NCBI GenBank assembly: GCA_020847095.1
Contig: JADLCR010000004.1
Span: forward strand, 1-64,000
Source: Oligoflexia bacterium
GTDB taxonomy: Bacteria > Bdellovibrionota > Bdellovibrionia > JABDDW01
Reading direction: 5' to 3'
Length of the DNA: 64,000 nt
A program made the translations under genes and the position numbers. This document shows, in pieces, positions 6,343-50,786 of the stretch; the stretch's first letter is position 1, and each line of letters opens with the position of its first letter. The notes under the pieces were generated by a model. The model ran no database searches, was not told where the DNA came from, and was given only the letters and a program-made list of their open reading frames with translations.

Positions 6343-7065
6343 CTAGATTTTAAAATTCTCTCCTAAGTAAAACTTCCTTGCGACTGGTGATTCTGCAATT
6401 TCCTCAGCGGTCCCAGTCACCTGAATACGACCTTCTTTAAGGATATAACCTCTATCACAGATTCTCAAAGTCTCGCGAACATTGTGGTCTGTAATCAGGA
6501 CCCCAATATTTCGCTCTTTGAGCTGCTTCACGATGGCCTGGATATCTCCTACGGCGATCGGATCGATCCCGGCAAAGGGCTCGTCTAGAAGCAAAAATTT
6601 AGGCTCTCCAGCAAGTGCTCTCGCGATTTCAACGCGGCGCCTTTCGCCTCCTGAGAGCGCGTATGCGTAACTTTTACTCACATGGTGGATCTTCAAATCA
6701 TCAAGAAGATCTTCTAGCCTTTCAGCCCGTTCGCTACTTCCATAGCCGTGAGCTTCAAGCGCCACCATGATATTGTCTTCAACTGATAATCGACGAAATA
6801 CCGAAGGTTCTTGAGGAAGATAACTCACGCCAAGGCGAGCCCGTTCATACATGGGCTTTTGTCCAATGCTTGCGCCGTTGACAAAAATGTCACCGGTATC
6901 TGGCTTTACAAGACCAACGACCATGTAAAACGAAGTTGTTTTACCGGCTCCGTTTGGTCCCAAGAGACCTACAATTTCGCCAGCACGCACTTCGAAGCTG
7001 ACGCCGTCTACGACTTTTCGCTTTTTAAACGATTTTGAAATGTTATCTATTGCGAGCACGTTCAT
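6343..7065 (-). CDS. lptB: LPS export ABC transporter ATPase
   Basis: LptB is the cytoplasmic ATPase that powers extraction of LPS from the inner membrane with LptF, LptG and LptC. The 240 residues hold Walker A GPNGAGKTTS, signature LSGGERRR, Walker B LLLDEPFAGIDP and switch histidine in LITDHNVRET, all typical of LptB. It directly abuts the upstream LptC-like gene and the downstream rpoN. lptF and lptG are not in the window. Confidence 0.96.
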   Translation of the reverse strand: MNVLAIDNISKSFKKRKVVDGVSFEVRAGEIVGLLGPNGAGKTTSFYMVVGLVKPDTGDIFVNGASIGQKPMYERARLGVSYLPQEPSVFRRLSVEDNIMVALEAHGYGSSERAERLEDLLDDLKIHHVSKSYAYALSGGERRRVEIARALAGEPKFLLLDEPFAGIDPIAVGDIQAIVKQLKERNIGVLITDHNVRETLRICDRGYILKEGRIQVTGTAEEIAESPVARKFYLGENFKI

Positions 7066-8070
7066 TTAAAGTTTCCTCCGCACTTCACCGTCAACGCGTG
7101 CCTTAGCTTTTATCACACGAATTTCTTTCCCGCCGTCAATAAATCGGATTTCTTCGCCGCGCAGCTCATTTTCCCCTTGCATCACTCTCGGGTCTCCTGA
7201 AAGTACAAATTCATTTTGAGCAAAAAGAATTTCAGCTCTTCGGCTTACCGCCAGCCGCTCGCGGTCGGTCACCCGCACGTTTCCTTCAAGCAGCAAGCTT
7301 TTCAAATTCCCTCCAGGAGCATACAAGAAATCAGCTCGATCGCCGGTCATTCTGACTTGATCCATATCCACCTGAACATTTTGCTCAAACCGAGCCATGT
7401 TGGCTTTTCCTTTTACTTTTGCGTGATGCGAGCGTATTTGCATATAACGATTGTTCTTGAACAGCTTTTCGGCTTTGACGTTTTGCTTTAAGGTCATTTC
7501 GTTAGTTTTAAGATCAGCCTCAAAACCTGCGCCTACAATTCGGATCTGACCATCTGAAGTTTCGGGACCCATTAAGTCAAAAGCCTCTGCGGTGCTGAGA
7601 AGCTTTTCCTTTGCCAGATATTTAACGGCTCCACTTTTAACGACATAACCATCAGAGGTCGTTGTGAGAACGTTCCCGCTGATTTCCATATCTTTTGTTT
7701 CGGTTTCCACAGTCCCTTCGTCTCCAGAAACCAAATATTCAACATTTGAATTTCCAAAAAACTTAACTTTAACCTTCTTAAGGCGCCAAGTTCCTTTGTC
7801 CTTAAAACCTTGTCCTTGCTGAGCATCAAGCTCCCACTCTTTACGTCCATTGGTAATTCCAAAAACGTGAGCACCGCTCATTTCTTGAGAAGTTGTTTCG
7901 ACAGCCGAAGTTTTAACTTCAATGGGAGGAGGAGTTGGCATCGGTCCGGCATCTTGAATGGTGTGGGTGCGCGAAGGGTTGAAGGTGACAATCTCAACAA
8001 CCAATATCGCTAAGAGCAGCCCAAAGCCCAGGACCTGGCCTAGACGTTTCCACTTTCTATTCATGTTCAA
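7066..8070 (-). CDS. lptC: LptC-like protein with an LptA/OstA-like C-terminal half
   Basis: The protein has one N-terminal membrane segment (about residues 12-28) and then a long periplasmic part of short beta strands. The first half fits LptC, which passes LPS from LptBFG to LptA. The second half (roughly 200-330), with repeats such as KGKANMARFEQNVQV, GGNLKSLLLEGNVRV and ENELRGEEIRF, reads like the OstA/LptA beta-jellyroll. At 334 residues it is far longer than the roughly 190 of enterobacterial LptC, so a C-A fusion is likely. Its stop abuts the lptB start. ATG codons at residues 1 and 3 are both usable. The domain split is inferred from pattern. Confidence 0.8.
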   Translation of the reverse strand: MNMNRKWKRLGQVLGFGLLLAILVVEIVTFNPSRTHTIQDAGPMPTPPPIEVKTSAVETTSQEMSGAHVFGITNGRKEWELDAQQGQGFKDKGTWRLKKVKVKFFGNSNVEYLVSGDEGTVETETKDMEISGNVLTTTSDGYVVKSGAVKYLAKEKLLSTAEAFDLMGPETSDGQIRIVGAGFEADLKTNEMTLKQNVKAEKLFKNNRYMQIRSHHAKVKGKANMARFEQNVQVDMDQVRMTGDRADFLYAPGGNLKSLLLEGNVRVTDRERLAVSRRAEILFAQNEFVLSGDPRVMQGENELRGEEIRFIDGGKEIRVIKAKARVDGEVRRKL

Positions 8071-8097: not shown

Positions 8098-8886
8098 ATG
8101 GACAAAACAAAGGCCGAATTCAACAAAAATTGGTTCACATACGACGGGCAACAAGTACTGGGCCCCTTGAGTCCGTTTCAAATTATTAAGCACCTGGAAT
8201 CCAAACGGCTACTAGAAACTGACCTTATTTGGAGTCGAGAATACTCTCAATGGCAGCCCATTTCAGAGTGGATGAAGGCTCAAAGCGCCCCTATAAAGGC
8301 CGACGAGGAACTGTGGTACGTTGCTTCCAAAGGACTAAATCAAGGTCCCCTCACTACAGATAGCCTGGTCAAACTAATGAAGCAAAAACAGCTTGGATTA
8401 GATAGCCGATTTTGGACGCCGGGAATGGACCGCTGGCTTCCGCTTTCTCAGTTCCCGGAGCTTGTTAAACGCGTGGGCCTAATGGCAAGAAAGCACCCGC
8501 GTGCTCCCTTTGTCGGAAGAGTTCGATTTGATGACGGACAAGAAATTCCCGCCCTAGCGCTGAACATTTCCCGTGGCGGAATGGGTTTGAGGCTTAACGA
8601 ACCGGCTGCAGGGGATAACAGTGATCTTGAAAAAACCGTGATCATGGATTGGGAATCTGAGGATCAAGAAAAAACCCGCATCTTCACATTTGATAAGCCC
8701 GAAACTTTTCTGGTTGGTTCGGAGTTCAAACTTCAAATTGAATCACCACTTTTAGACAAAGTCTTTTCAGTAGAATCCATTGTGGTCCATCGGACCAATG
8801 AAGAAATCGGGCTTAGGTTCTTGAGTATTCCAGAACCCGCCCTTCAAAGCCTAGATCGCTATATCAGTGAATTTCTAGAGGCTTAA
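8098..8886 (+). CDS. Tandem GYF_2 domains plus PilZ domain protein
   Basis: Two repeats of about 50 residues, WFTYDGQQVLGPLS...W and WYVASKGLNQGPLTT...W, fit the GYF_2 (DUF4339) family, which binds proline-rich peptides. A PilZ domain follows from about residue 130: RKHPR gives the RxxxR element and NISRGG the [D/N]xSxxG element, so the cyclic-di-GMP contact residues look intact. No signal peptide or membrane segment is seen. The gene is divergent from lptC and overlaps the 3' end of aglS by 4 bp. GYF domains also occur in the Myxococcus gliding protein GltJ, so a control role on the neighbouring motor is a reasonable inference. The start has a weak ribosome site. Confidence 0.82.
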   Translation: MDKTKAEFNKNWFTYDGQQVLGPLSPFQIIKHLESKRLLETDLIWSREYSQWQPISEWMKAQSAPIKADEELWYVASKGLNQGPLTTDSLVKLMKQKQLGLDSRFWTPGMDRWLPLSQFPELVKRVGLMARKHPRAPFVGRVRFDDGQEIPALALNISRGGMGLRLNEPAAGDNSDLEKTVIMDWESEDQEKTRIFTFDKPETFLVGSEFKLQIESPLLDKVFSVESIVVHRTNEEIGLRFLSIPEPALQSLDRYISEFLEA

Positions 8887-9464
8887 AGATTCTCACTCTC
8901 AATCGGAGTCTCTTTTTTCATGACAGCAAAATTGATTTCGCTGGCACCGGCTTCAGTGAGTGTGAACATGATCTTTTTAATGGTTAGAAAATCCAGCTGC
9001 TTATCGGCCTGCACGGTCACTTTCTTAAAGTCTTCCGGCGGTGCTTGATCGGCGGGTTTGTTTCCCCCAATGGCGGCCTTTATGGCTTCTTTAAAAGTGA
9101 CTTCGTCTTTTTGTAACAAAATAGCCAGCTTTTCTCGGAGCGCCGGAATCATCCAATCCTTTTGGGACTTAACATCATCCAGCTTGGCAACCGTTTCTTT
9201 GTCCAAGATAACGTCTTTATCTGTCACTGAAACCACGTGGGCGGGACGCAATTCTTTTACCTGCTCGGCTTGAGGAAGAGATACTTCTTTTGGAATATAA
9301 AGAATCTCACCCGTACTGCTGTAATGCTGCAGCAAGAAGATGACGAGAATTGTGAAGATATCAACCATTGAGGTCAAACTGAGCTCAACCATAATGTTTC
9401 GCTTATTGACGACTATCTTTCTCTTATGGCGAGGATCTCGTTTTCCTGGAATATAAATGGCCAT
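8883..9464 (-). CDS. aglS: ExbD/TolR-type motor subunit, AglS-like
   Basis: This is the second of two ExbD-like stator proteins. A basic N-terminus is followed by a single membrane helix (about 28-46) carrying the proton-path aspartate D35 in SLTSMVDIFTILVIFLL, then a periplasmic domain. At 193 residues it has a longer periplasmic insert than usual ExbD. It follows aglQ by 9 bp with AGGAGATCTC before the start. The ExbB-ExbD-ExbD order equals the aglR-aglQ-aglS motor of Myxococcus; the letter assignment of Q versus S rests on order only. Confidence 0.82.
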   Translation of the reverse strand: MAIYIPGKRDPRHKRKIVVNKRNIMVELSLTSMVDIFTILVIFLLQHYSSTGEILYIPKEVSLPQAEQVKELRPAHVVSVTDKDVILDKETVAKLDDVKSQKDWMIPALREKLAILLQKDEVTFKEAIKAAIGGNKPADQAPPEDFKKVTVQADKQLDFLTIKKIMFTLTEAGASEINFAVMKKETPIESENL

Positions 9465-9473
9465 GAGATCTCC

Positions 9474-9950
9474 TTATTGTCCTGCACCCTGAGTCGCAAT
9501 TGCGATTTCAGTAAATTTGGCAATCATCATTGCGTCCATGCCACGAATAAGTTCGTTGTACTTCAAGTCGTCTTGGACGGTGATGATGCCATCAAGTTTA
9601 TTAGGATACTTCTGTTTGATATCGCCAAGCTGCTTAACAAGTGTCGTTTGATCCCACTCTTCTCCAACCTTGGGGATTCGAACCGATTGTTTGCCCCAGT
9701 TAACGACATACCCTTGATGAGTCACGTCGACTCGTAAATTGACTTGCTCTCTTTCGGGCTGTTCGACTTGTCCCGTATCGTTTCGCTTGCCGTAAATTGA
9801 ACTACCAATTTGAATCATGCTCACTTGGGTCCAGACGGCCGTCATCAGCAAGAAACAAATCGCCGTACTCATGAGATCAATAAAGGGAACCAGGTTAAGT
9901 TCGAAGTTAACCTGTTTCCCTTTTCCAGAATGTGAATCGGGGTTTTGCAT
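9474..9950 (-). CDS. aglQ: ExbD/TolR-type motor subunit, AglQ-like
   Basis: The 158-residue protein has a membrane helix starting at about residue 18 with the essential-type aspartate D25 in NLVPFIDLMSTAICFLL, then a periplasmic domain ending in FTEIAIATQ. It should form, with AglR and AglS, a proton-driven channel in the inner membrane. It lies 18 bp after aglR. Its sequence differs clearly from the following ExbD gene, so this is not a recent duplication. Confidence 0.84.
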   Translation of the reverse strand: MQNPDSHSGKGKQVNFELNLVPFIDLMSTAICFLLMTAVWTQVSMIQIGSSIYGKRNDTGQVEQPEREQVNLRVDVTHQGYVVNWGKQSVRIPKVGEEWDQTTLVKQLGDIKQKYPNKLDGIITVQDDLKYNELIRGMDAMMIAKFTEIAIATQGAGQ

Positions 9951-9968: not shown

Positions 9969-10649
9969 TTAGTCTTTAAATTTTTCTCTGTTAGCGACAA
10001 CCAGGTTCATCAAATTCATCGAGCTTTCAGCAAGATCGTTTTGAATACGGTTAATTCGTGTTTGAAAGTAACCGTAGAAGATCAGTGCTGGAATAGCTAC
10101 GACCAGTCCGAATGCTGTACAGTTCATCGCTTCAGCGATACCTGACGACAACATCGCAGCCTTCTGAGCAGGATCGGCCTGAGCCACCGCTCGGAATGAT
10201 GTAATAAGACCAACGATGGTTCCCAGTAGTCCAAGCAGCGTGGCCACGTTTGAAAACAAAGCCAAAAAGCCTGTCCAACCTTCGAGTGCTGGGTTTTCTT
10301 TTAATGCTGCTCCGTCCATTGCCACTTGAACTTCTTCGTCAGGTCGTTTGTTCAAGACCTGAACAAGTCCGGCTTTCATGGTGTTGGTTAATGGTGCGGG
10401 CCGGCTGTCACAAAATGTGATGGCCTGTCGAATGTCGCCTCTCAAAATCATTCCAAAGAGCTTTTCGTTGAAATCCTCTTTGTCGACTGCGACTTTTCCG
10501 AGAGTAAAAAACCTCTCAAGAACGATAAATAAAACAAACACCCCAACAATGGCGATGGGGTACATTCCTGGCCCGCCGCCCTGAAAGGCTGCTATTATGA
10601 AATTGGCTGCCGGCGTGGCTGCCACCTGTGCTGTTAATCCTGGTTCCAT
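9969..10649 (-). CDS. aglR: MotA/TolQ/ExbB-type proton channel, AglR-like
   Basis: The 226 residues show three membrane helices (about 30-46, 129-151 and 171-195) and the TolQ/ExbB core GLLGTIVGLITSF followed by GIAEAMNCTAFGLVVAIPA. This is the stator protein that surrounds the ExbD dimer. The gene lies after the GltG-like FHA gene and before two ExbD genes, the arrangement of the Agl gliding motor. A TolQ or ExbB role in Tol-Pal or TonB systems is the alternative, but the TPR/FHA neighbours favour Agl. Confidence 0.86.
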   Translation of the reverse strand: MEPGLTAQVAATPAANFIIAAFQGGGPGMYPIAIVGVFVLFIVLERFFTLGKVAVDKEDFNEKLFGMILRGDIRQAITFCDSRPAPLTNTMKAGLVQVLNKRPDEEVQVAMDGAALKENPALEGWTGFLALFSNVATLLGLLGTIVGLITSFRAVAQADPAQKAAMLSSGIAEAMNCTAFGLVVAIPALIFYGYFQTRINRIQNDLAESSMNLMNLVVANREKFKD

Positions 10650-10684: not shown

Positions 10685-12640
10685 TTATTCTTGAGCCTGG
10701 AACACAAACGGATACGCCACATCGGCAACTGTGCCAGGAGGCGGCTCCGGAAATTTCCAAGTTCTTAATCTTGCTACTAAACAATTTTCGACTTCCGGCG
10801 CGTTCATCGTAGTTGCGCCCACTCCCGCCGAAATGACATTGCCTCCAGGACCAATCGACCACTTAATGGTCACCTTTCCGTAGAGGCTCGGGTTTTTATT
10901 CAAACCTTTTTCGTAACATGAGCGAATTTGACCGAGATTGCTTTGCACCACACGTCGAATAGCTTCTTTATCGATGGTGCCAGTGGCTGTCATTTCTTCA
11001 CCACCTGCCAAGATCGTGGCGTTTTTCTTCGCGCCCAGTGATCCGGTTCCGTAGCCACTGAGCCCACCGCCACGGCCTTTGGTTGTGACCCCACTAATTC
11101 CAACCGTTGCCGTACCTTGTCCACCGGCGCCGGTTTCTCTAAGCCCCGCACCGGGAGTGGTTCCGCTTCCTGCTGCTTCAGCCGCTTCACCGGTGGCGGA
11201 TTTCGAAAGACCCGCGACAGCTCCCGAACCTTGAAAGGCTTTATTCAACTGGTCTTGAACACCTTTTGTTCCGAAAACGCTCAATACGCCAGTTTTCGTA
11301 ACGTCTTTGGCCTCAGTCTTAGGAGCCGAATCGGACTTTGTTTTCCCGGGAATGGGCTGAATGCCTTTGTCTTTTCCAGCTTTATCCGTAGTTGGGATCT
11401 TCTTTGTGCTTTCGCTTTTGTTTGGTTTGGCATCACGAGACGCACCTTCTTCGCCTCGGGCCGGAGCCACCTCTTTATCTTTGATGGGCTCTTGTGCGGT
11501 TTTTGGAACCGTTTGAGGGGCCGGCGGAGTTTGCTCTGACAAATCCACTTTCTCGCGTTTATAAAAGAATTGCGCTTTTCGTGGCTCTTCTTTGGCCTTT
11601 TCTAAGATTTCTTCGAGTGGTGGAGGCGCGTACAAAAAGGCATAAAACAAGAAAAGTGACGTCGCCATCAAACCTAAAATCAGAGCAGTCAGTTGATTGA
11701 CACTGATATCAATCCAAGGTGCTATTCGAGTTTCGGGAGCTGCAGCCACATACCGAATAATGAGCGCCACACCCTGACCGAAGCTAATTTTAATAACTTC
11801 ACCCTGTTGAAGCGCGTAGCTATGCCCAGCACCGGAAGCCGTCATCGTTCCCTGTCTTTTGAGATCTTCAAAACTCAATGTGCGATCTTCGCGTATGAGT
11901 TCGCCCGTCATGTCGGCCGTGAGCAATACGGTGGCAATGCCTGCTATTTTGACAATCGGATGACTTTGTCGAACGCTTCCAAAAACGGGCAAAATAATTT
12001 CATTTTTGGGATGAGAGCCCACATTGATCATTCCGCCCTTACTAAAATGATAGGTGTTCACGATACGATCGTGCCAAGTCAGAACGATCTCAACCACTGA
12101 ACCCTTTGTGGGTTTCAAATTTTCGCTTATTTTGGCCGATGACCGCGGAGCAAATGTTCCCTTTAATGGTTTTACTGACGTTCTGGCAACGGTTGCCATA
12201 CCTGCGCCACTTGAGCCTGCATGCCGAACCGGCTGGGGCTGTGACTTTGGCAGCGGGCGCGCTGGTTCTTGTTTAGTACTGGTTTTCGGGGCACTCGCCT
12301 CGGAACTTGTGGTGGATTTAACTTTGGGAACGCCAACGTTAAACTCAATTCTTAAACCGCCAACGTTGAAACTATCGCCGGATTGAATTTTCGTATCAAC
12401 AACTTTGGCCCCCTTGTAATGGGTGCCCGATTGACTTCCTAAGTCGCAAAGGTGAAATTGTCCCTCACCGCGCTCTTCAAGCATGGCGTGGATTGTTGAA
12501 ATTCCGGGATCGTCAAGGCGAACATCAACCTCACCTTCTCGTCCAAAAACAATTTGAGATTTGACCGCAAATTGCTTCACTTCAACAAGTTGATCACCTT
12601 TAAAAATTCGAATAAAAATGGGCTGCCTGTTGCTTGTCAT
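10685..12640 (-). CDS. gltG: GltG-like inner-membrane protein: FHA domain, TM helix, AgmX/PglI C-terminal domain
   Basis: An N-terminal FHA domain (about 5-102) has the phosphothreonine-site residues GR (33-34) and SxxH (48-51). A second region (about 180-300) looks like a degenerate FHA-type sandwich. A single membrane helix follows (about 313-337), then a Lys/Pro-rich stretch, a Gly-rich stretch and a TonB-like AgmX/PglI C-terminal domain (about 555-651) with the paired cysteines C575 and C620. The protein can therefore link a cytoplasmic phosphorylation signal to periplasmic or outer-membrane partners. It lies directly upstream of aglRQS and overlaps the preceding small gene by 4 bp. The gltG name is by architecture. 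Confidence 0.8.
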   Translation of the reverse strand: MTSNRQPIFIRIFKGDQLVEVKQFAVKSQIVFGREGEVDVRLDDPGISTIHAMLEERGEGQFHLCDLGSQSGTHYKGAKVVDTKIQSGDSFNVGGLRIEFNVGVPKVKSTTSSEASAPKTSTKQEPARPLPKSQPQPVRHAGSSGAGMATVARTSVKPLKGTFAPRSSAKISENLKPTKGSVVEIVLTWHDRIVNTYHFSKGGMINVGSHPKNEIILPVFGSVRQSHPIVKIAGIATVLLTADMTGELIREDRTLSFEDLKRQGTMTASGAGHSYALQQGEVIKISFGQGVALIIRYVAAAPETRIAPWIDISVNQLTALILGLMATSLFLFYAFLYAPPPLEEILEKAKEEPRKAQFFYKREKVDLSEQTPPAPQTVPKTAQEPIKDKEVAPARGEEGASRDAKPNKSESTKKIPTTDKAGKDKGIQPIPGKTKSDSAPKTEAKDVTKTGVLSVFGTKGVQDQLNKAFQGSGAVAGLSKSATGEAAEAAGSGTTPGAGLRETGAGGQGTATVGISGVTTKGRGGGLSGYGTGSLGAKKNATILAGGEEMTATGTIDKEAIRRVVQSNLGQIRSCYEKGLNKNPSLYGKVTIKWSIGPGGNVISAGVGATTMNAPEVENCLVARLRTWKFPEPPPGTVADVAYPFVFQAQE

Positions 12641-12936
12641 TTGGTCTTCTCTATATCTTCAGCTGTTTGAGTCATTTCAGGAACAAAGTTTTCTCTGAGC
12701 TTAATGAGCTTTCCAAAATTAAATTGCTTCTTCTGCAAAAGATAAAAAAGTTCCGGTTTCTTAACTTCACCCTGAACAAGCTGATCTTCAAAATCGACCG
12801 TGGTTCGCTTTGTGGGTTTTGGCGCGGCTTGCTGACTTTGCTCTTGGGCGTACGCATTCGGACACGACCAGGCGAGCAACAATGTGATGCTTGCTACAAA
12901 AGAAATCCAAAATGATTTACCCCAGATGAAGGTCAC
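12637..12936 (-). CDS. Small exported protein of the gliding cluster, unknown
   Basis: A 99-residue protein with a clear signal peptide ending at about SCPNAYAQ, then a short charged mature part (KRTTVDFEDQLVQGEVKKPELFYLLQKKQFNFGKLIKLRENF). It overlaps both neighbours by 4 bp, so it is translationally coupled to the TPR lipoprotein and the FHA gene. A similar small protein is common in such gltG-upstream positions, but I do not recognise a domain. It may be a periplasmic piece of the envelope complex. Confidence 0.8.
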   Translation of the reverse strand: MTFIWGKSFWISFVASITLLLAWSCPNAYAQEQSQQAAPKPTKRTTVDFEDQLVQGEVKKPELFYLLQKKQFNFGKLIKLRENFVPEMTQTAEDIEKTK

Positions 12937-13802
12937 TCGGACTCTCCCTTTTCCGTGCTCCCCTTTGCAGCAGCTTCCGCTCGCTTGGCCATTTGTATGG
13001 CCTTTTCAATTATAGCAGGATCAGTGCTAGACGATCGAATTTTGTTCAAAAATTTCAACGCCTTCTTTGGACGATTGACCTGGTCCAATAGCAAGACGGC
13101 GTAGTTGAGCTGGACTACCGCATTGCCTTCATTTTTCTTGAGAGCCTTTTCAAACGCCTCAATGGCCTGCTCGCTTTGTCCCGTTCGAGATAAAGCGACG
13201 CCCCAATTGGAGAGAGTTTCTACCGACTCATCTCCACTTCGGACCGCTGATTCAAGCTCGGCAGCCGCTGCCGTGTAGTTTCTGTAAGAAAGATAAATTT
13301 GACCTAAGTTCGCTCGGGCGGAGCGATTTGACGGGTTGATCTCGATGGACTTTTTAAAATGAGATAGAGCCAGTCTCAAGTTCCCCGACTTTAGTTCGAT
13401 AAGCCCAAGGTTATTTTGAGCAGCAGAATTTGAGGGCTCTTTGGCCAGTACCTTTCCGATCAGAAGCCTGGCCAACGAAAGCTTATTTTGTTCAATGGCC
13501 ATAATTCCCAAGGCATTCAGTATCCGTAGGTCATTGGGCTGACGCGCCAAGATCTCGCCCCCAATTTCTTGAGCAAGCTTAAAATTCTTCGACAATCGCG
13601 CCTCGTTAAACCGACGATAGTGCTCACTGCTAGGCGCCTCCGAAGGGGGTGGTACCGATTTTCCGCCATCAGCATCTGAAAGAGTGACTTCATCAGAGCG
13701 GCTCTCCACATCGGGAACTGGGGCGTTTGTCGATGAGGTGGAACATGCCATTAATCCTGTGCATGTCAAAACCCCAATGAGAATCTTAAACGGTTTGGTC
13801 AT
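12933..13802 (-). CDS. TPR lipoprotein of the gliding cluster
   Basis: The 289-residue protein starts with a lipoprotein signal whose lipobox LMAC places the lipid-bearing Cys near residue 20. At least four TPR units follow, with typical NLGLIELKSGNLRLALSHFKK and ANLGQIYLSYRNYTAA patterns. It is likely anchored to the outer membrane and faces the periplasm. It overlaps the genes on both sides by 4 bp. It probably corresponds to one of the TPR lipoproteins (AglT/Glt type) of the Myxococcus machine; I do not assign a letter. Confidence 0.85.
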   Translation of the reverse strand: MTKPFKILIGVLTCTGLMACSTSSTNAPVPDVESRSDEVTLSDADGGKSVPPPSEAPSSEHYRRFNEARLSKNFKLAQEIGGEILARQPNDLRILNALGIMAIEQNKLSLARLLIGKVLAKEPSNSAAQNNLGLIELKSGNLRLALSHFKKSIEINPSNRSARANLGQIYLSYRNYTAAAAELESAVRSGDESVETLSNWGVALSRTGQSEQAIEAFEKALKKNEGNAVVQLNYAVLLLDQVNRPKKALKFLNKIRSSSTDPAIIEKAIQMAKRAEAAAKGSTEKGESE

Positions 13803-16800
13803 GGCATTAACCCCATGTCGTCGGCTTTCGAAACAGATGACACAATTTCTTTAGGTTCTGCAAACTTGTCGGGAACGAACTCACCCATTTTATTAAGGGC
13901 AAGCCTGGTGTACTTATTGTAATAATTTATTTCGTAACTCTTATTGATTGCCGAAGTGAAATTTTCGACGGCCTTCGCCTTAAGCGGCAGCGCCACCTGA
14001 TCGACTCCCTTTTTGTACGCCTCTACTTCTTGCGGATTAAGACCTTTAGGAACCGGCGCCGACCAAAGGGCCTTGCTGATATGATCATACGCAAGCCCAA
14101 GTTTAGCGAGCGACGCTATGACCATGTTTCCTTCGTCATATTTGATCACTTCAGCGAGAGCGCCATTTAACTTCGTGAGAAGCTGCAGCTTCTGCTGAAT
14201 GGCTTCGCCCTGCTTAGCCGGATTTGCTGGAATTCGAATTGAAGCAAACTCATCGTACACCCGCTCGGCGAGCTTAAACTTTGCTTCTGCCGCAAATACC
14301 AACCCCACAGGTCTTCCGGATTTAGCCGTCAATGATTTTTCCGTAGCTACGGTTCTTTGATAAGCCTTTGTAGCATCATCCACTCGGCCTTTTGCACTAT
14401 GCAATTCGCCGATTCTAAATACGGCTTCTACAATTTGCTCACCGTCCGTGGGGCCTGAAGATAAAAAATGTTCGTAGGCTTCAATGGCCGGTTTATTTTG
14501 ACCCAGCTGCTCTTTAATTTGCGCAATTTTGAATAACGCTGAAGCCCGATCCTTTCGTTTGGTCGAATTGTAATACTTTTCGTAGCTGTTAATGGCTTTG
14601 TAATATTCTTTTTGGCCTTCCCAGATGAGGGCCGAATTGTAATACAAATCCGGTGTTAATCTGTCGCCGGGATTTTCTTTGGCGTAACGCTCAAACTGGA
14701 GAGCCGCCTTGTCGTATTGCCCAGTTTGCTCGTACATCTTTCCAAGCAGCAAGAGCGAGCGATAGTAAGATTTTTCCTGTCCCTTTTTAGGCGGTGTTGC
14801 CACCACCCGAGAATATGAAACGATGGCTTCCGGAAATTTATAAGCGCGCTCGTAATTGACTCCAGCGTTGAACGTGGCAACCGGAGTGAGTGCGCTCTTC
14901 GGATATTTTTTGGCAAACAAAGCAAAAGCCCTGGCGCTATCCTCATACTTTTTGGCGAGTTCCAAATCTTGGGCCTTTTTAAAATCCACCTTTTCAACAA
15001 CTTCTCTGACGTCAGCCGAGAAACCCTGCGATGCCAGAGCGGGGTTTTTTATAAGATCTTGACCCTCTCGAGCCAGGCCATCGTAATCTTTGCGCAAATT
15101 AAAGATATCGAGAATGAGGTTCGCCGAGTATACGGCGTATGGAGTTTTGGGGTGTTGAGAAACAATTTGCTTAAATGTTTTAAGCGCTTCATCGAAATGA
15201 TTGAATGAGTAGTGAAGTCGACCGACTTTAAACTTCACATCGACCGACTTTTCGCCCCGAGGAAATGTCTTAATATAGTACTCGGCGGCTGCCACGAAAT
15301 TGTTCTCTACTTCACCAAAAGCAACTGGCTGAAGACTGTCGCCAACGACCTTTTTCATCTGCTCATCGGTTTTCAAACCCTTTTCAAGTGAGAGCACCGA
15401 ATTGAGGACCGAAGGTTCGAAATATTTTCCTTTAGGATCTTTATCCGCCACCATGCGGTAGTTGCGACCGGCATTTTCGAATTCACCCATGGCGTACAAG
15501 AGCTCTGAAAAGAAGAAGTGCATTTCGCTATTCTTCGGTGAGTCCTTAAATTTAACGAGATAGAGTTGATAGGACTCTCTGGCCTGAGCAAAATCGCCCT
15601 TTTTAGTGCTATTTTGTGCGTTCTTGTGCAACAGCAACGTGTAATTGCGAAGGGCGGACTCTCTCAACGTGTAGGCATCCGCCATCAGTTTTTCATTTCC
15701 GGCGTTGGCGCGCCCCCACGCCCCGTCGGGCCCATAGTTATCGACCCAATTGAACAATTCATCCCGATAGACGCGCTGATTTCGGCTCGTCGAAAAATTT
15801 TTAACAATTTGATATTGATAATCGAATGCTCGTGGCGCGGTTGCATTGTGATCTAGGAGTTGTTTAAAAACATACTGCGCTGGTTCTTTTCTTCCCGTAT
15901 CGCTATAAAGATAAGCGAGTTTCTCCAACATGATCCAGGCAGCCTTCTCTCCGCCAAGGGACATAAAATACTGCTTGGCCGCGGCGTAATTTCCAACGTC
16001 AGCATAAAATAAAACTGCGTCTTTCAGTGCCTCACTTCCTAAACGAATTTTACTTACTGGCTTTGAACGCCCATCAGTTTGAGAAGCATCCGATGTACGA
16101 CTGAGCTTAATAACCTGCTCTAGAGTCTTTAGACCCTGTCCCACTCGCCCCATACGATACTGACACCAGGCAATTTTATAGAGAGCAAATGAGTAAAGCC
16201 TGGCTCGAGGATTTTTTAAGACGTCTGAATATGACTTGAGCCCTTCGCTCCATTTATCGTTTTCAAAGTAATACTCGCCCAATGCAAAATGCGCTTCACC
16301 GATATAAGGAGAATTTGGATGTTCTTTCACGAGTCTTTGATAGTAACTAACGCCTTGTTTGATTTGACCCATTTCGACGTGGTTGTAGCCCAAGAAAAAT
16401 AATGCTTGGTCAATCTTTTGATCCTTAGGAAAGTCTCTCAAAAACCACTGATAAAGTGTGATGGCCTTCTTATTGTACTCTTGGCTCGAGCTAAGACTGA
16501 GCTTGGGTTTAGGGCCCTTTTTTTCGAGATATCGCGCAAGCTTGACGTCGTACTCCTTTTGAATCCGATATTCGATGTATTTGGCTTTCTCCACATAGAG
16601 CTCAGCCAAACGGAGCCACAATTCACCACGATTTTTACTTTTTGTGTAACGTTTGGTGAGGCGGTAAAGTTCGTTAATTCCTTCGTCGGTGATCTTTTCA
16701 AGTTTTCCTTCGTCGGTTTCGTCCCCCATAAAGAATTCACGACTTGAAGGAGGCTTGACTGACGATAGAGGAACAGCTTGAACGGCTGTTTGCTTGACTT

Positions 16801-16972
16801 CAGGCAGGGCGATCGATTGTTTTCGCAACTGAACATTTTGACCGCGGCTATTAGAATCAATTGATTCTAAGACATCAGCGACGGTCTTCTTACGAACGGC
16901 TCGCTGACCGTAAACGGGTGAGCCCATTAGACCTGCTAGAAATAAAGTTAAAACCAATGATTTCTTTTTCAT
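13799..16972 (-). CDS. Large periplasmic TPR protein, GltD/AgmU-like
   Basis: A 1057-residue protein with a signal peptide (cleavage near VYGQ) and many TPR units along its whole length, for example ALFFLGYNHVEMGQIKQGVSYYQ and ALFKIAQIKEQLGQNKPAIEAY. Such proteins form a long scaffold in the periplasm. Its size and position match the giant TPR protein of the gliding machine. It overlaps the TPR lipoprotein gene by 4 bp and lies 1 bp after the preceding TPR gene. Confidence 0.83.
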   Translation of the reverse strand: MKKKSLVLTLFLAGLMGSPVYGQRAVRKKTVADVLESIDSNSRGQNVQLRKQSIALPEVKQTAVQAVPLSSVKPPSSREFFMGDETDEGKLEKITDEGINELYRLTKRYTKSKNRGELWLRLAELYVEKAKYIEYRIQKEYDVKLARYLEKKGPKPKLSLSSSQEYNKKAITLYQWFLRDFPKDQKIDQALFFLGYNHVEMGQIKQGVSYYQRLVKEHPNSPYIGEAHFALGEYYFENDKWSEGLKSYSDVLKNPRARLYSFALYKIAWCQYRMGRVGQGLKTLEQVIKLSRTSDASQTDGRSKPVSKIRLGSEALKDAVLFYADVGNYAAAKQYFMSLGGEKAAWIMLEKLAYLYSDTGRKEPAQYVFKQLLDHNATAPRAFDYQYQIVKNFSTSRNQRVYRDELFNWVDNYGPDGAWGRANAGNEKLMADAYTLRESALRNYTLLLHKNAQNSTKKGDFAQARESYQLYLVKFKDSPKNSEMHFFFSELLYAMGEFENAGRNYRMVADKDPKGKYFEPSVLNSVLSLEKGLKTDEQMKKVVGDSLQPVAFGEVENNFVAAAEYYIKTFPRGEKSVDVKFKVGRLHYSFNHFDEALKTFKQIVSQHPKTPYAVYSANLILDIFNLRKDYDGLAREGQDLIKNPALASQGFSADVREVVEKVDFKKAQDLELAKKYEDSARAFALFAKKYPKSALTPVATFNAGVNYERAYKFPEAIVSYSRVVATPPKKGQEKSYYRSLLLLGKMYEQTGQYDKAALQFERYAKENPGDRLTPDLYYNSALIWEGQKEYYKAINSYEKYYNSTKRKDRASALFKIAQIKEQLGQNKPAIEAYEHFLSSGPTDGEQIVEAVFRIGELHSAKGRVDDATKAYQRTVATEKSLTAKSGRPVGLVFAAEAKFKLAERVYDEFASIRIPANPAKQGEAIQQKLQLLTKLNGALAEVIKYDEGNMVIASLAKLGLAYDHISKALWSAPVPKGLNPQEVEAYKKGVDQVALPLKAKAVENFTSAINKSYEINYYNKYTRLALNKMGEFVPDKFAEPKEIVSSVSKADDMGLMP

Positions 16973-16973
16973 A

Positions 16974-18653
16974 CTATTCGCAACCTTGGGTTCCTAGGTA
17001 ATGATAATCGCCAATTTCATCTAGCCAGTACTCACCCCTAAAGGGCCAGTATTCAAATCCGTTTTGAATATAAAAATCACGATTCTGAGATTCGTCGACC
17101 TGCTTAGCCAGAAGACCTTTACCCTGAATTTTCTTTTTCAAGGTTTCTTTTCGTCCGTTGATCATTTCGTATCGAGCGAAGTTGTATTGCTCAAAAAGAT
17201 CCTCTAACTCTTGTTTCATCGTAAGCATGTGATTTTTAGAAATTTCTCCAGCCAATCTCATGCTGGAGTTCAATCGCCCTTTGATGAGTTGGCTTGCGTA
17301 CTGGCCTATGGCCGCTCTCTTCCAAGTGACCGGCTGATTGTGAATGACGGACTCTTCTTGACGAAGTTGAGTAATGTATCCGTAAATGTTTTTAAAATCG
17401 CCCTCTCTAAAAATGCTTCGAGACACCATAAAAGGCACGCGTAAGGTCTTCCTCAAAGAGGGATCAGCCTTAAGCTTCTCGTAGTTACGCGCCACTTTTT
17501 CAACTTCGTTGAAATAAGACTGAGAATCAGAATTTCCGCGAGTGAAACTCTCAAGACTATTTTGTACGGGTTGATAGAGACGCTCAAAAAGGGCCAGCGT
17601 CTTTTCCATTTCGTCATATTGGCAAATGTAGAGATAGACGATTCCTCTCAACAAAATCGATTCAGGAATCCAAAAATCTTCATAATAGGGGGAGTGAAGC
17701 GAGTGAAGATTTGAAAGTACACTTCTAAACTCTGCTGATCTTAGGTGGGCCCAACTTTGTTCAAACAGCACATCATGCCAGAGCTCAGTGTCCCTGGGCA
17801 CTTGGCGATAGAAGTCCGCAGCCAAGTCCCACTTTTTTGCTTGATAATAAACTCGCGCAAGACCGGCCACAGCGGCAACCCGATTGGTGTCAGTGACACC
17901 CCTCGGTGCGCGGGCATTGGCCAGAATATTGAAAGAGCGAATCGCATTATTGAGTTCGTTGAGTTTTACATATGAAAGCGCTTCCAGATACTTGGCGCGG
18001 GAGAAGTAAATAGAACTTTGCGGAACTTGAGCCAACATTTGCGTGGCCTTTTCCCATTGTCCTTTTCGATGAAAGAATTCACCAAATCGATAGCGCAGCA
18101 TATCGCGATTTTCGGCCGGAAAGTCTTCAATGGAAATACGCCCGATTGCGTAGTTCAAAAGTGTGTCATCATCGGAGATGTCGGCGGCCACTGAAAGTTT
18201 TTGCAGAGCTTGCTTAACATAGCGAGGGTCACCTTGCCTGACGACATCCACAAACTGAAACGCCGCTACCTGAAATAGCTTCATCTCAAATAACATCAGG
18301 CCCAAGACGTATTTAATTCGATTGCGGCTTGCCATAAATCTTGGGTCACGAGTCATTCTAAACAATCTTGCACTGGCTCCTGCATAATCGGGTGGATCTA
18401 GTTTTGTGAGCGCCAGGGCTGCGCGCAATTCATTTTCGGCCTGGTCAGACATCGAAGTGCTACTGGAATAACCAGGTCGAGCCGGAACCGAAGATTTGAA
18501 TGAAGAAGAAACAGGGGCTTTCTTAGCAGGTCTGGTTTTCGAAGCTGTGCTTTTAGCCTTTCTTTGGGATTTTTGAGCCAACACCACTCCCGTTGAAAGC
18601 GACATCGCCACGAGAATCACGACACCTAATTTAAATCCGAATATTTTCATCAT
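16974..18653 (-). CDS. Periplasmic TPR protein, GltE-like
   Basis: The 559-residue protein has a signal peptide (about 1-26, ending VVLAQ), a basic Ser/Lys/Pro-rich segment (about 27-65) and TPR-like helices through about residue 500. The C-terminal end NGFEYWPFRGEYWLDEIGDYHYLGTQGCE is aromatic and unusual. It overlaps the upstream barrel gene by 4 bp and ends 1 bp before the large TPR gene. Two ATG codons in a row make the start uncertain by one residue. Confidence 0.82.
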   Translation of the reverse strand: MMKIFGFKLGVVILVAMSLSTGVVLAQKSQRKAKSTASKTRPAKKAPVSSSFKSSVPARPGYSSSTSMSDQAENELRAALALTKLDPPDYAGASARLFRMTRDPRFMASRNRIKYVLGLMLFEMKLFQVAAFQFVDVVRQGDPRYVKQALQKLSVAADISDDDTLLNYAIGRISIEDFPAENRDMLRYRFGEFFHRKGQWEKATQMLAQVPQSSIYFSRAKYLEALSYVKLNELNNAIRSFNILANARAPRGVTDTNRVAAVAGLARVYYQAKKWDLAADFYRQVPRDTELWHDVLFEQSWAHLRSAEFRSVLSNLHSLHSPYYEDFWIPESILLRGIVYLYICQYDEMEKTLALFERLYQPVQNSLESFTRGNSDSQSYFNEVEKVARNYEKLKADPSLRKTLRVPFMVSRSIFREGDFKNIYGYITQLRQEESVIHNQPVTWKRAAIGQYASQLIKGRLNSSMRLAGEISKNHMLTMKQELEDLFEQYNFARYEMINGRKETLKKKIQGKGLLAKQVDESQNRDFYIQNGFEYWPFRGEYWLDEIGDYHYLGTQGCE

Positions 18654-19522
18654 CTGTACTTTGCCCCCGGAAAGAAGAAGCTAAGCCCAATGGTGGCGTG
18701 AAGGTTGGTGTAAGTTCCACCTGGACGGTTTGCAACTTTGGAGTCGGTTTTATAAAGAAACCAACTAATATCCCATCGGGCCGCAAGCCACTTTTTGATG
18801 GCAAACAATTGACCCGCTCCCAAATGAAAAGTGGGCGGGCGACTGTCCTGATTTGTTCCAGTGAGTCCGCCGCCAACAGTGAGATAGAAGTCGTACGGAA
18901 TAATTGAAGAGTTCAGCCATGCCACTTTTCCGTAAATGGGAGACCATTTAAAATCAATACCCATGTAATTGGTTGGCGTAGCCAAAGAGGCTGTTGAAAT
19001 ATTGCGTTCTGACTCTAGTTCGCGAGTGACTTCTTTTTGCCCGGTTCCAAAAAGGAGTCCCGTTAACTCAACCCCGTAATGCTCGTGAAAGTAGTATCCG
19101 AATTTTGCTCCGTAAACAAACGAGTTGAAGAACTTATCATTGAGAACCATCCCGCCATTCGGAAAAAATTCAAATCGTTTAGTTTTCGGAAGATACTTTC
19201 TGGAAATCACCGCCACATCACTAAAAGGAGCTAGCCTGCCTAATCCCGAAAGTTCAGCCGGAATCATCTTTTTTGGTTTACCGTCGACTTGCACTCTTGT
19301 CGGTGTGGGAGTTGACATGGGAATCGCTTCTAACTCCTTTTCGACTTCTTCGGGGGTCATAGGAGCTGGCTCCGGGCTCTCGCTGCCCGAAAAACTTCCC
19401 TGAGGCGGCGGAACATTTGGATCAAATGGAATTTCTTGAGCTTGAGCAACTGAACTCACGACTAACAGTACGCTCAGCGCCATGACCCAATTTAGTTTAC
19501 TGATTGTTCTGCTCAAAATCAT
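18650..19522 (-). CDS. Outer-membrane beta-barrel protein of the gliding cluster
   Basis: After a signal peptide ending SSVAQAQ comes a Pro-rich linker (about 28-70) and a barrel domain of alternating amphipathic strands, with motifs such as FNSFVYGAKFGYYFHEHYGVELTG and DFYLTVGGGLTG and a terminal GLSFFFPGAKYR. This fits the small myxobacterial-type outer-membrane barrel family seen in Glt operons (GltA/GltB). I chose the ATG at 19522 over the GTG at 19531 because AGGTGGCGGG precedes it. It follows a paralogous barrel gene. Confidence 0.82.
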   Translation of the reverse strand: MILSRTISKLNWVMALSVLLVVSSVAQAQEIPFDPNVPPPQGSFSGSESPEPAPMTPEEVEKELEAIPMSTPTPTRVQVDGKPKKMIPAELSGLGRLAPFSDVAVISRKYLPKTKRFEFFPNGGMVLNDKFFNSFVYGAKFGYYFHEHYGVELTGLLFGTGQKEVTRELESERNISTASLATPTNYMGIDFKWSPIYGKVAWLNSSIIPYDFYLTVGGGLTGTNQDSRPPTFHLGAGQLFAIKKWLAARWDISWFLYKTDSKVANRPGGTYTNLHATIGLSFFFPGAKYR

Positions 19523-19531
19523 TCCCGCCAC

Positions 19532-20242
19532 CTATTGCAACATGGGAAAGTTAATGACTGCTCCCACTGTCAGCATGATGTTAACTGTGTTTTTCTTCGT
19601 AACGGTTTGAAGCACCACATCTTCTTGTTGATAAAACAACGCGCGAATATCGGCCTTAATGCCAATGTCTCGGGTGAAGAAAAATCTCTGCGTGATGCCG
19701 CCAGAAATCGCAACACTGCTATCTGATGCCACATCACTTTTAACTCCCAGTAATCCGCCCCCAACAATAGCGCCGATGTTCAAGTGCATAACTCTTTGTT
19801 TAGTCAGGCTGATTTTCCCGTAGAAAGGAGTGAACTCATATTCCAACAACCCTAAGAATGACGGATAAGGGGCGCGGGCAAACGGAATGTTCTGTCCGTT
19901 ATTCAACTCTTGAACCGCCGCGATCTCGCTTGCTCGCTGTGAAATGAAATAGCTGCCAAAAATTCCAACACTGTGGATTTCGTCAAAGTGATAAGCAATT
20001 TTGGCACCCAATGGGTAAGCGTTAAACCAAGGGTCTGAAAGAAAAGAGCCTACTAATGGGTTGAGTTCAAATCGAGATTCCATTGGAACCAGTCGCTTCT
20101 TTACCGCTTCGGGCTGATCAAAAACGGGCAAGACGCTTTCGCGAGCAAGCTCTTCTTCAGGGAATTTAATCGTCTCAGCTTTGACCAAACTGACATTTAA
20201 ACTCAAAGCGACGAATAAGAATGCAAAGACCAACTGCTTCAT
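19532..20242 (-). CDS. Outer-membrane beta-barrel protein, paralogue of the next gene
   Basis: The 236-residue protein has a signal peptide (ends VKAE) and the same barrel pattern as its downstream neighbour: PWFNAYPLGAKIAYHFDEIHSVGIFG parallels FFNSFVYGAKFGYYFHEHYGVELTG. The pair probably forms the outer-membrane part of the gliding complex. Its ATG overlaps the kdsC stop (ATGA), so it is coupled to the Kdo genes. Confidence 0.82.
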   Translation of the reverse strand: MKQLVFAFLFVALSLNVSLVKAETIKFPEEELARESVLPVFDQPEAVKKRLVPMESRFELNPLVGSFLSDPWFNAYPLGAKIAYHFDEIHSVGIFGSYFISQRASEIAAVQELNNGQNIPFARAPYPSFLGLLEYEFTPFYGKISLTKQRVMHLNIGAIVGGGLLGVKSDVASDSSVAISGGITQRFFFTRDIGIKADIRALFYQQEDVVLQTVTKKNTVNIMLTVGAVINFPMLQ

Positions 20243-48864: not shown

Positions 48865-49903
48865 TCGATGAAATCCGCACTTCGTTTTTCTTTTCCTCAA
48901 AATCCCGAAGCTTGATGAGGTCTCCCCGCTCAAGATACGGAGATACTTGATCGCGATGAAGCCAGGACAAAAACTCCCGGCGTTCGCCGCGACAAATTTG
49001 TTGTCTTGATTTACCGCGCTCTTCTTGTTCATCGCCAATAACTCGGGCCAAAAACCTGTGACGTTCAGGCGGCGGTTGCCGTGCGATCAACAGATAGCTC
49101 ATTGTCAAAGTGTCGTTTCGCATAGGAAGGTGCTTTTCCAGCTCTACAAACCATTCGGGTTTATTCCAGTTTATACGGTGATGGCACCAATCCCTCGGGG
49201 ACTGAGTGTAAACAGGACATGGCCCCTGATGCACGCAAGGCGCCCAAGCATACCAACCGCGAGTCAGGATCTCTTCTCTCCATTTAAGTAAGGCGCGGCT
49301 TGCTTGGTGGGTGCTGGGTTCGATAATAATTAGTCTTTGAACATGATCGGGAATTTCGGGCCAGCTGGCAACTTCATTTAAGACATAGCTGAGTATCAGC
49401 GTATCGGACTGACACTCACGAATTTGCCCTAGGTTTTTCTTACTGATTTCCACATTCACATTGAGAAACTCAAAAAACTTTTTTAATTCACCAAGTGCCG
49501 AGTCACTACTATCTACGGCATCGACGAGATTAAGCGACTCGGCTTCGTGATCTAAAATGGCCCAGGAAGCTGCCCCCAGGCCACACCCCCAATCAGAAAT
49601 CTTCTTGGCCGATACCAGAAAATTTTGTCTTGAGGCCTCACTTAAAACAGCGCGAGCTCGCAAATAATTAAGAACCTGAAAATAGCTCAGGTAAGCCGCT
49701 CTGTATTTACTATCGGCCCAATAGTCGAGACTAAGCTGTCTCAATAGAAACTTTTGAGAAAGCTCCCGAATAACCTGACTTAACGTTTCTGGTTTATGAA
49801 GATCGTACCCCAACTGAACAAGTCGGTTTTGAAGATACTGAGTATATTTTTCGGGAATGCTAAAGTGTGGAGACACGGTTACGACCAGCTCTCTTGCTTG
49901 CAT
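48836..49903 (-). CDS. Rsm22/METTL17-like methyltransferase-fold protein
   Basis: The ATG at 49903 gives about 355 residues (residue numbers here are from the TTG at 49927). A SAM-binding motif ISDWGCGLGAASW is followed by an Rsm22-type cysteine segment: C231 and C237 (PCVHQGPCP), C248 (RDWCHH) and a distant C312 (QQICRG). This spacing resembles the iron-sulfur four-Cys pattern of METTL17. Rsm22 proteins assemble the small ribosomal subunit in mitochondria; bacterial members are less studied. The C-terminal Lys/Arg-rich part fits the family. It overlaps the FHA-GGDEF gene by 44 bp. True start is uncertain (TTG 49927 and GTG 49876 are alternatives). Confidence 0.8.
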   Translation of the reverse strand: MQARELVVTVSPHFSIPEKYTQYLQNRLVQLGYDLHKPETLSQVIRELSQKFLLRQLSLDYWADSKYRAAYLSYFQVLNYLRARAVLSEASRQNFLVSAKKISDWGCGLGAASWAILDHEAESLNLVDAVDSSDSALGELKKFFEFLNVNVEISKKNLGQIRECQSDTLILSYVLNEVASWPEIPDHVQRLIIIEPSTHQASRALLKWREEILTRGWYAWAPCVHQGPCPVYTQSPRDWCHHRINWNKPEWFVELEKHLPMRNDTLTMSYLLIARQPPPERHRFLARVIGDEQEERGKSRQQICRGERREFLSWLHRDQVSPYLERGDLIKLRDFEEKKNEVRISSTSGFDLIDD

Positions 49904-50786
49904 AAGAAGCCTGGTCAGCCTTTTCAAACAGTGCTGATGCCGACGCCATGGTCGAATCTAGGCACGCCACTCCAAGAGATATAGTTACAGGAATTGTCTT
50001 ACCGCCGAAACTAAAGTTGTGCTTTTCAATGGTCGATCGAATACGCTCAGCCACATCGCAGGCTCTCTGCAGGGGGCTGCCGTACAATATAATTACAAAT
50101 TCTTCGCCCCCGTATCTGCCGAAGGTATCTCCAGACCGGATCAATTGATTTTTGACGACCGTGCAGACTTCTCTCAGCACAAAGTCGCCCGCTTGGTGCC
50201 CATGGGTATCGTTAATTTTCTTAAAGTGATCAAGATCGAAAACAATAAGTGAAAGATTGGTTTCAGTAAGTCGCGACTTTTTAAAACTTTCTTCCAAGGA
50301 CAGTAATAAGGCCGACTTATTTAGTATTCCAGTCAGGCCGTCAGTTGTACCGCGATCGTAATTATGAGCAGCAGCAAAGGATTCGATTCCACTACTTACG
50401 AACTTGAAGATCACATTTCCCAATTTTACCGTATCATTATCAACGAGTTTTGCTTCTTTCATGGGATCGAGGCGCTGTCCGTGAAATTCCGTTCCGTTTG
50501 TGGATCCTTGATCCACAATGAAAACCCCATCGTCTTTAACTCTTACCAATGCATGGCGCTTACTCATGCTTTTTTCGTCAACATGAATGTCACAAGTTGG
50601 ATCGCGTCCCACCGTAAGTTCCGCTTTCTCCAACGGCCACTGCTTACCCATGACTCCAGCCGGGCCCATCAGCAAAATGAGAGCGGGCGGCCTTTTTCCT
50701 GCCTCTTCGAGACGAACCTTAAGAGTATCGCTATCAACAACGCTGGTCTTGTCGAGTTTGTTTTCTTCCGCCGCCATGAAATCCAT
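49860..50786 (-). CDS. FHA-GGDEF diguanylate cyclase, DgcB-like
   Basis: The 308 residues begin with an unstructured Thr/Ser-rich tail (DKTSVVDSDTLK), then an FHA domain (TVGRDPTCDIHVDEKSMSKRHA, GSTNGTEFHG) and a GGDEF domain with the active GGEEF signature and an upstream RxxD (RSGDTFGRY), the cyclic-di-GMP inhibition site. This architecture is that of DgcB of Bdellovibrio bacteriovorus, needed for prey entry, where the tail is phosphorylated and bound by the FHA. Whether this tail is used so here is inference. No membrane segment. The gene overlaps the Rsm22-like gene start and lies 47 bp after pgi. Confidence 0.88.
   Translation of the reverse strand: MDFMAAEENKLDKTSVVDSDTLKVRLEEAGKRPPALILLMGPAGVMGKQWPLEKAELTVGRDPTCDIHVDEKSMSKRHALVRVKDDGVFIVDQGSTNGTEFHGQRLDPMKEAKLVDNDTVKLGNVIFKFVSSGIESFAAAHNYDRGTTDGLTGILNKSALLLSLEESFKKSRLTETNLSLIVFDLDHFKKINDTHGHQAGDFVLREVCTVVKNQLIRSGDTFGRYGGEEFVIILYGSPLQRACDVAERIRSTIEKHNFSFGGKTIPVTISLGVACLDSTMASASALFEKADQASYASKRAGRNRVSTL

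Follow-up and report, generated by a model that had tools for sequence, protein, structure and literature searches.

A gene convergent with aglS, in the gliding locus of an Oligoflexia bacterium (GenBank assembly GCA_020847095.1), codes for a protein in which two GYF domains are joined to a PilZ domain. What role could such a protein have beside an Agl-Glt motor? The gene is found in the window, the stretch of 64,000 nucleotides of contig JADLCR010000004.1 (positions 1 to 64,000) that was analysed here, and an earlier note on this DNA had proposed it as a candidate cyclic-di-GMP switch of gliding.

The reading preferred here, to which a probability of roughly 0.55 is given, is that of a soluble cytosolic cyclic-dinucleotide receptor acting on the Agl-Glt machinery as an adaptor similar to YcgR or MotI. 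It is built on the domain set, the fold, the RxxxR motif in an interdomain linker, the repeated linkage to Agl-Glt genes and the Pro-rich linker of GltG, all of which are observed. The earlier interpretation holds in part, namely for the regulator linked to gliding, the GltJ-like GYF domains and the Pro-rich stretch of GltG; against it, the second PilZ motif is degenerate in nearly all relatives and the type I gene is unlinked to the main motor in Bdellovibrionaceae.

Domain organization of the GYF-GYF-PilZ protein

The open reading frame starts at an ATG and codes for 262 amino acids. Its product matches Pfam GYF_2 (PF14237) in two copies (E=2.5e-21, 75.6 bits for a cut-off of 25.8) and Pfam PilZ (PF07238; E=2.7e-12, 47.4 bits for a curated cut-off of 22.5), so that the GYF_2-GYF_2-PilZ organization first read from the sequence is confirmed with both profiles above their curated cut-offs. 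These are the only Pfam domains found, and a YcgR/PilZN amino-terminal domain was not detected in the protein.

In the AlphaFold2 model two small GYF domains are followed by a linker with the RxxxR motif and by a PilZ barrel, into which a disordered stretch (residues 168-201) is inserted. The confidence of the model is moderate (pLDDT 69, nine sequences) and conclusions are therefore restricted to the fold level. In Foldseek searches the PilZ part matches the solved c-di-GMP receptors MapZ, Alg44, MotI/DgrA and YcgR, while the GYF part matches the GYF domain of GltJ (7z3c) with 32% identity. The window gene is a member of an unstudied family of soluble proteins combining GYF and PilZ domains. 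Its features and those of the surrounding locus are listed in Table 1.

Table 1. Features of the GYF-PilZ gene and of the neighbouring Agl-Glt and lpt genes (positions in the window)
Feature	Position	Strand	Basis
lptC-like gene in divergent orientation, ~30 nt between its start codon and that of the GYF-PilZ gene	7066..8070	-	Neighbour in 21/25 loci
GYF-GYF-PilZ protein, type I	8098..8886	+	Pfam GYF_2 and PilZ over cut-offs; homologues across Bdellovibrionia; AlphaFold2 model
GYF_2 domain 1	8131..8268	+	W12, G22, P23, W45, W52 invariant (44 homologues)
GYF_2 domain 2	8314..8463	+	W73, W113 invariant (44 homologues); resembles GltJ GYF region
PilZ domain, interrupted by insertion at residues ~168-201	8488..8868	+	Pfam; insertion disordered in model
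RxxxR = RKHPR, residues 131-135	8488..8502	+	Linker between GYF 2 and PilZ barrel (position from model)
NxSxxG = NISRGG, residues 156-161	8563..8580	+	Sequence reading
aglS (ExbD/TolR-like)	8883..9464	-	Pfam
aglQ (ExbD/TolR-like)	9474..9950	-	Pfam
aglR (MotA/TolQ/ExbB proton channel)	9969..10649	-	Pfam, NCBIfam
gltG: FHA domain, TM helix near residue 318, AgmX/PglI C-terminal domain	10685..12640	-	NCBIfam
Pro-rich cytosolic GltG linker, residues ~99-185, candidate GYF target	12086..12346	-	Ortholog comparison
TFAPRS within GltG linker	12140-12157	-	TFAPxS-like motif
CglF/GltF-like	12637..12936	-	NCBIfam CglF E=4.7e-13
GltE-like TPR lipoprotein	12933..13802	-	NCBIfam GltE E=2.2e-17
Large TPR protein, GltD position	13799..16972	-	Name GltD inferred from position
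GltC	16974..18653	-	NCBIfam GltC E=1.4e-61
Two outer-membrane barrels, GltA/GltB-like (18650-19531, 19532-20242)	18650..20242	-	TIGR04565 OMP_myx_plus over cut-off, both

The Agl-Glt locus of the window

The genes convergent with the GYF-PilZ gene form an operon that amounts to a complete Agl-Glt locus, here in a genome of the Bdellovibrionia, as shown by homologues of two ExbD proteins, MotA/ExbB, GltG, CglF, GltE and GltC together with two outer-membrane barrels. The gltG product is recognized by the NCBIfam models GltG (E=1.1e-87) and myxo_SS_tail (E=3.7e-32). On the opposite side the gene is flanked by divergent homologues of lptC, lptB and rpoN. The convergence with aglS and the overlap of the two genes, both mentioned previously, are correct and amount to 4 shared nucleotides. 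The overlap was considered as a regulatory feature and rejected: it is not conserved in relatives and is best taken as incidental.

PilZ motifs and the putative ligand

The PilZ motifs had been described as intact, which applies to the window protein with its RKHPR and NISRGG and less so to its family. Among 60 family members both arginines of RxxxR are invariant (60/60), while in the second motif, (D/N)xSxxG, the serine is found in 54, the glycine in all 60 and D/N in only two, one of them the window protein. The D/N position is mostly T or S in type I and mostly E in type II, the two clades of the family that are described below. As a control, D/N is kept in 8 of the 10 other PilZ domains with a readable motif from Bdellovibrio bacteriovorus HD100. 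An invariant RxxxR combined with the frequent loss of D/N leads to the expectation, based on these motifs, that GYF-PilZ proteins bind a cyclic dinucleotide that is not necessarily c-di-GMP and could be cGAMP.

The degenerate second motif in 58 of the 60 proteins could also mean that GYF-PilZ proteins are scaffolds that bind no nucleotide, the PilZ domain serving for docking and the protein being a constitutive factor for assembly or localization of the Agl-Glt complex. PilZ domains can act without ligand, as found for Myxococcus xanthus PixA whose RxxxR mutant still restored motility (PMC8316039). This explanation is nevertheless unlikely. The constancy of RxxxR, with SxxG nearly as constant, is hard to account for without a ligand, the window protein carries the full motif, and M. 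xanthus PixB binds c-di-GMP even though it lacks the conserved serine (PMC8316039).

Five GGDEF proteins are encoded in the window genome, two of them with a Hypr-type serine (one at locus L125, the other at window positions 54317-55717). In the latter, encoded on the minus strand, the GHxxGD site reads GHVIGS and the serine is of the type of Bd0367, where it accompanies cGAMP synthesis (PMC9140294); the protein is predicted to be a cGAMP-capable synthase. An FHA-GGDEF protein resembling HD100 DgcB, which is required for prey invasion, is encoded ~40 kb from the gliding locus (49860-50786, minus strand), and in one relative (G002) two GGDEF genes lie on the same contig as aglRQS.

It would be a bold and rather improbable proposal that the GYF-PilZ family serves as receptor for 3',3'-cGAMP, instead of or besides c-di-GMP. 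With T, S or E in place of D/N, the second motif would then be adapted to Hypr GGDEF enzymes of the Bd0367 type, which B. bacteriovorus needs for gliding, and Agl-Glt motors would own dedicated cGAMP-gated adaptors. The second motif of the window GYF-PilZ protein has the canonical asparagine despite the Hypr-type GGDEF proteins of the same genome.

Distribution of the family and linkage of type I genes

The family is common throughout the class and its architecture is not a chance combination: relatives were matched in 143 of 197 related genomes, the weakest matches covering the GYF domain only. In scans of genome contigs the window protein alone as query retrieved no confirmed relative, and alignment A4 retrieved only 8 loci, from Bdellovibrionaceae. 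In a tree of 60 GYF-PilZ proteins, type I and type II come out as two clades, both supported, and the window gene falls in type I.

Of 54 genomes outside the Bdellovibrionaceae, 36 have the type I gene within 1 kb of the main aglS and 43 have it within 5 kb. In none of the 41 genomes of group f2 is it within 5 kb of the main aglS; this group is taken to be the Bdellovibrionaceae, the named loci among its closest relatives being Bdellovibrio. Type I genes are convergent with the agl genes and outside the agl operon. The proposal of the earlier note would have been refuted if the architecture were common away from motor genes, which is partly the case: type I lies apart from the main motor in Bdellovibrionaceae, unlike the linked majority outside this family.

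The search of gene neighbourhoods suggested by the earlier note gave a similarly divided answer, with repeated Agl-Glt linkage on one side and, on the other, motor-bearing genomes without the protein and an equally constant lptC. Type I was undetected in at least four aglS-bearing genomes that are more than 90% complete (G051, G063, G069 and G075), and is thus an accessory rather than a core part. A deeply branching relative from beyond the class (L070) has a GYF-GYF-PilZ gene with no motor genes nearby. At a distance of 1.6 kb lies a second gene (the pair being at L070:4081-5217 and 6811-7593), whose lipoprotein-like product contains a VWA-like DDTGS motif and had no NCBIfam match.

Over 25 type I loci the neighbours are lptC in 21 and aglS in 20. 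The type I protein might accordingly be tied to the divergent lptC-lptB-rpoN genes, in control of the envelope or of LPS, with adjacency to agl being inherited gene order. Three loci keep lptC although they lack aglS or have it 6 kb away (L038, L067 and L069), and agl and lpt are adjacent in HD100 at a locus (L084) where the GYF-PilZ gene is missing. This explanation is improbable: a relocated type I gene is upstream of another aglRQS in two Bdellovibrio species (L064, L065), the HD100 type I gene, at ~1.911 Mb, is near neither agl nor lpt (L057), and type II genes are found in Agl-Glt operons devoid of lpt genes.

Type II genes in second Agl-Glt loci

Type II is present in 30 of the 31 genomes searched and in all 30 it belongs to a second Agl-Glt cluster. 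Its gene is 0.3-2.5 kb from the second aglS in 25 genomes, and in the other five (L094-L098) it opens a Glt operon that lacks aglRQS. Of 12 sampled loci, 11 have a next gene transcribed in the same direction at a distance of -53 to +146 nt. The window genome has both types: its type II gene, on contig C73 (L079), precedes by 28 nt a second aglR, truncated at the contig end.

Conserved linkage to Agl-Glt components is thus found for type II in 30/30 genomes and for type I in 43/54 outside and 0/41 inside the Bdellovibrionaceae. That a single family is associated twice, independently, with one type of machinery is the chief reason to regard the link as functional. It supports the idea of a regulator tied to the gliding machinery, which gains from type II being co-operonic with motor or Glt genes. 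Given the repeated position of the family beside gliding-motor genes in Bdellovibrio relatives, the window protein probably puts surface gliding under the control of a cyclic-dinucleotide signal.

The window genome has four aglRQS-glt clusters besides that of the window (on contigs C6, C27, C73 and C94; L080, L081, L079 and L093), five in total. Within the stretches covered, a GYF-PilZ gene accompanies only the clusters of the window and of C73.

The cytosolic domains of Myxococcus GltJ work with polarity factors, and a CglD/MIDAS-adhesin-like lipoprotein gene directly follows type II in several loci and is the only such neighbour of a third HD100 copy of the family (L086), so that the GYF-PilZ protein might be a cyclic-dinucleotide receptor for a polarity or adhesion factor (MglA/RomR-type, or a CglD/MIDAS-like lipoprotein system) clustered with the motor by shared behaviour, quite an improbable explanation given that aglR or a Glt TPR gene comes next where the lipoprotein gene is absent, and that the lipoprotein would sit outside the cytosol, which would make its direct binding by GYF-PilZ impossible.

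GYF domains and the GltG linker

A profile of 44 homologues compared with PDB entries has its best match in the GYF domain of GltJ (7z3c; E=3.2e-7), and GYF domain 2 matches the GltJ GYF region (residues 63-124) with E=2.4e-8. The kinship to GltJ is thus supported by the PDB profile, NCBIfam and Foldseek. It is not exclusive to the window protein, as the GltJ model is likewise matched by other GYF proteins encoded in the genome, and for this reason a GltJ-specific origin of the GYF domains is not claimed. Identity with full-length GltJ was not found in the short, PilZ-bearing window protein, which scores 33.6 bits for an NCBIfam cut-off of 450, in the GYF region only.

Further GYF proteins of the window genome include a HAMP/adenylate-cyclase-like sensor with carboxyl-terminal GYF domains (L090:4067-7180) and a GYF-GYF-transmembrane protein with Pro-rich segments (L091:7653-9398).

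The Pro-rich stretch that the earlier note placed in the cytosol or periplasm for GltG is cytosolic and is conserved across the 22 orthologues compared: in all of them it comes after the FHA domain and is followed by a further cytosolic part and then by the transmembrane helix. A TFAPxS-like motif is present in 19 of them. The linker of the window genome is less Pro-rich (6 per 30 residues) than that of most orthologues. PPG is the ligand motif of eukaryotic GYF domains, and in the cytosolic part of the GltG orthologues it is nearly absent. The composition and conservation of the linker make it a plausible candidate target of the GYF domains, in agreement with the earlier suggestion.

A working scheme for the proposed adaptor

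For a cyclic-dinucleotide adaptor of the Agl-Glt machinery, we propose ligand binding, a conformational switch, a partner and an effect as follows. The PilZ domain would bind c-di-GMP (or cGAMP) through RxxxR in its linker to GYF 2, and the ligand would alter how the GYF pair is placed with respect to the PilZ barrel. The GYF pair might then bind or release a Pro-rich segment on the cytosolic side of the motor complex, for which the linker of GltG is the likeliest candidate and a loop of AglR a less likely one. Recruitment, braking or release of the complex would make gliding follow the second messenger.

GYF-PilZ proteins of B. bacteriovorus HD100

In HD100 18 PilZ matches were found, three of which are identified as GYF-PilZ proteins (locus tags used here are inferred, in part from published gene numbers). 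One is Bd1482, a type II protein with a single GYF_2 domain encoded at the head of an aglRQS-glt operon; its identification follows from bd1480 being aglQ (PMC9140294) and from the gene order at L078. In the operon of Bd1482, bd1480 is responsive to surfaces as well as to Bd0367, a GGDEF enzyme required for gliding (PMC9140294). The third copy, a GYF-GYF-PilZ gene directly 5' of a CglD/MIDAS-like lipoprotein gene (L086:7409-9249, at ~3.008-3.010 Mb), has no motor genes beside it. Judging by its position, the lipoprotein gene is probably the surface-induced bd3099.

The earlier note knew of no described protein with this domain set in that place. This has to be qualified: Hobley et al. 2012 present Bd1482 as a PilZ protein whose gene lies at the 5' end of a gliding operon, and as candidate DgcA/c-di-GMP receptor for gliding (PMC3271064). 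The GYF domain of Bd1482 seems unreported before. A search of mostly open-access literature for papers combining GYF and PilZ gave none of relevance, and extending the finding to a GYF-bearing family, encoded at two Agl-Glt loci throughout the class, seems to be new.

Bdellovibrio gliding needs the cyclic-dinucleotide enzyme Bd0367/DgcA, and no published receptor relaying its signal to the motor was found. The presence of the GYF-PilZ family at two independent Agl-Glt loci offers a short list of candidates, three genes in HD100.

Relation to known systems

The closest described protein is Bd1482, which shares GYF_2 and PilZ with the window protein and belongs to the same family. It differs in having one GYF domain instead of two, in being of type II with its gene inside the motor operon rather than convergent, and in its SxSxxG motif.

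GltJ (AgmX) of M. xanthus, the best PDB match, likewise has a cytosolic GYF domain and is part of the gliding complex. It is, however, a large membrane protein with other domains, including an AgmX/PglI tail, and without PilZ, and it was reported to be absent in Bdellovibrio (PMC3169522). PixA, PixB and PlpA of M. xanthus are PilZ proteins whose loss impairs gliding; the partner domains are a receiver in PixA and an acetyltransferase in PixB instead of GYF, and their action on motility goes via or beside the Frz system (PMC8316039).

YcgR and MotI (DgrA) are like GYF-PilZ proteins in the combination of accessory domain(s) with a carboxyl-terminal PilZ and an RxxxR in the interdomain linker. 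Their target motor has a MotA homologue, and AglR, a MotA/ExbB homologue, is encoded beside the window gene. They differ by a YcgR/PilZN domain in place of GYF and by acting on the flagellar stator rather than the gliding motor. Judged by its domain content, the window protein is outside the YcgR family and is not a GltJ. If the adaptor role is confirmed, PilZ control of MotA-type motors would reach beyond flagella to gliding.
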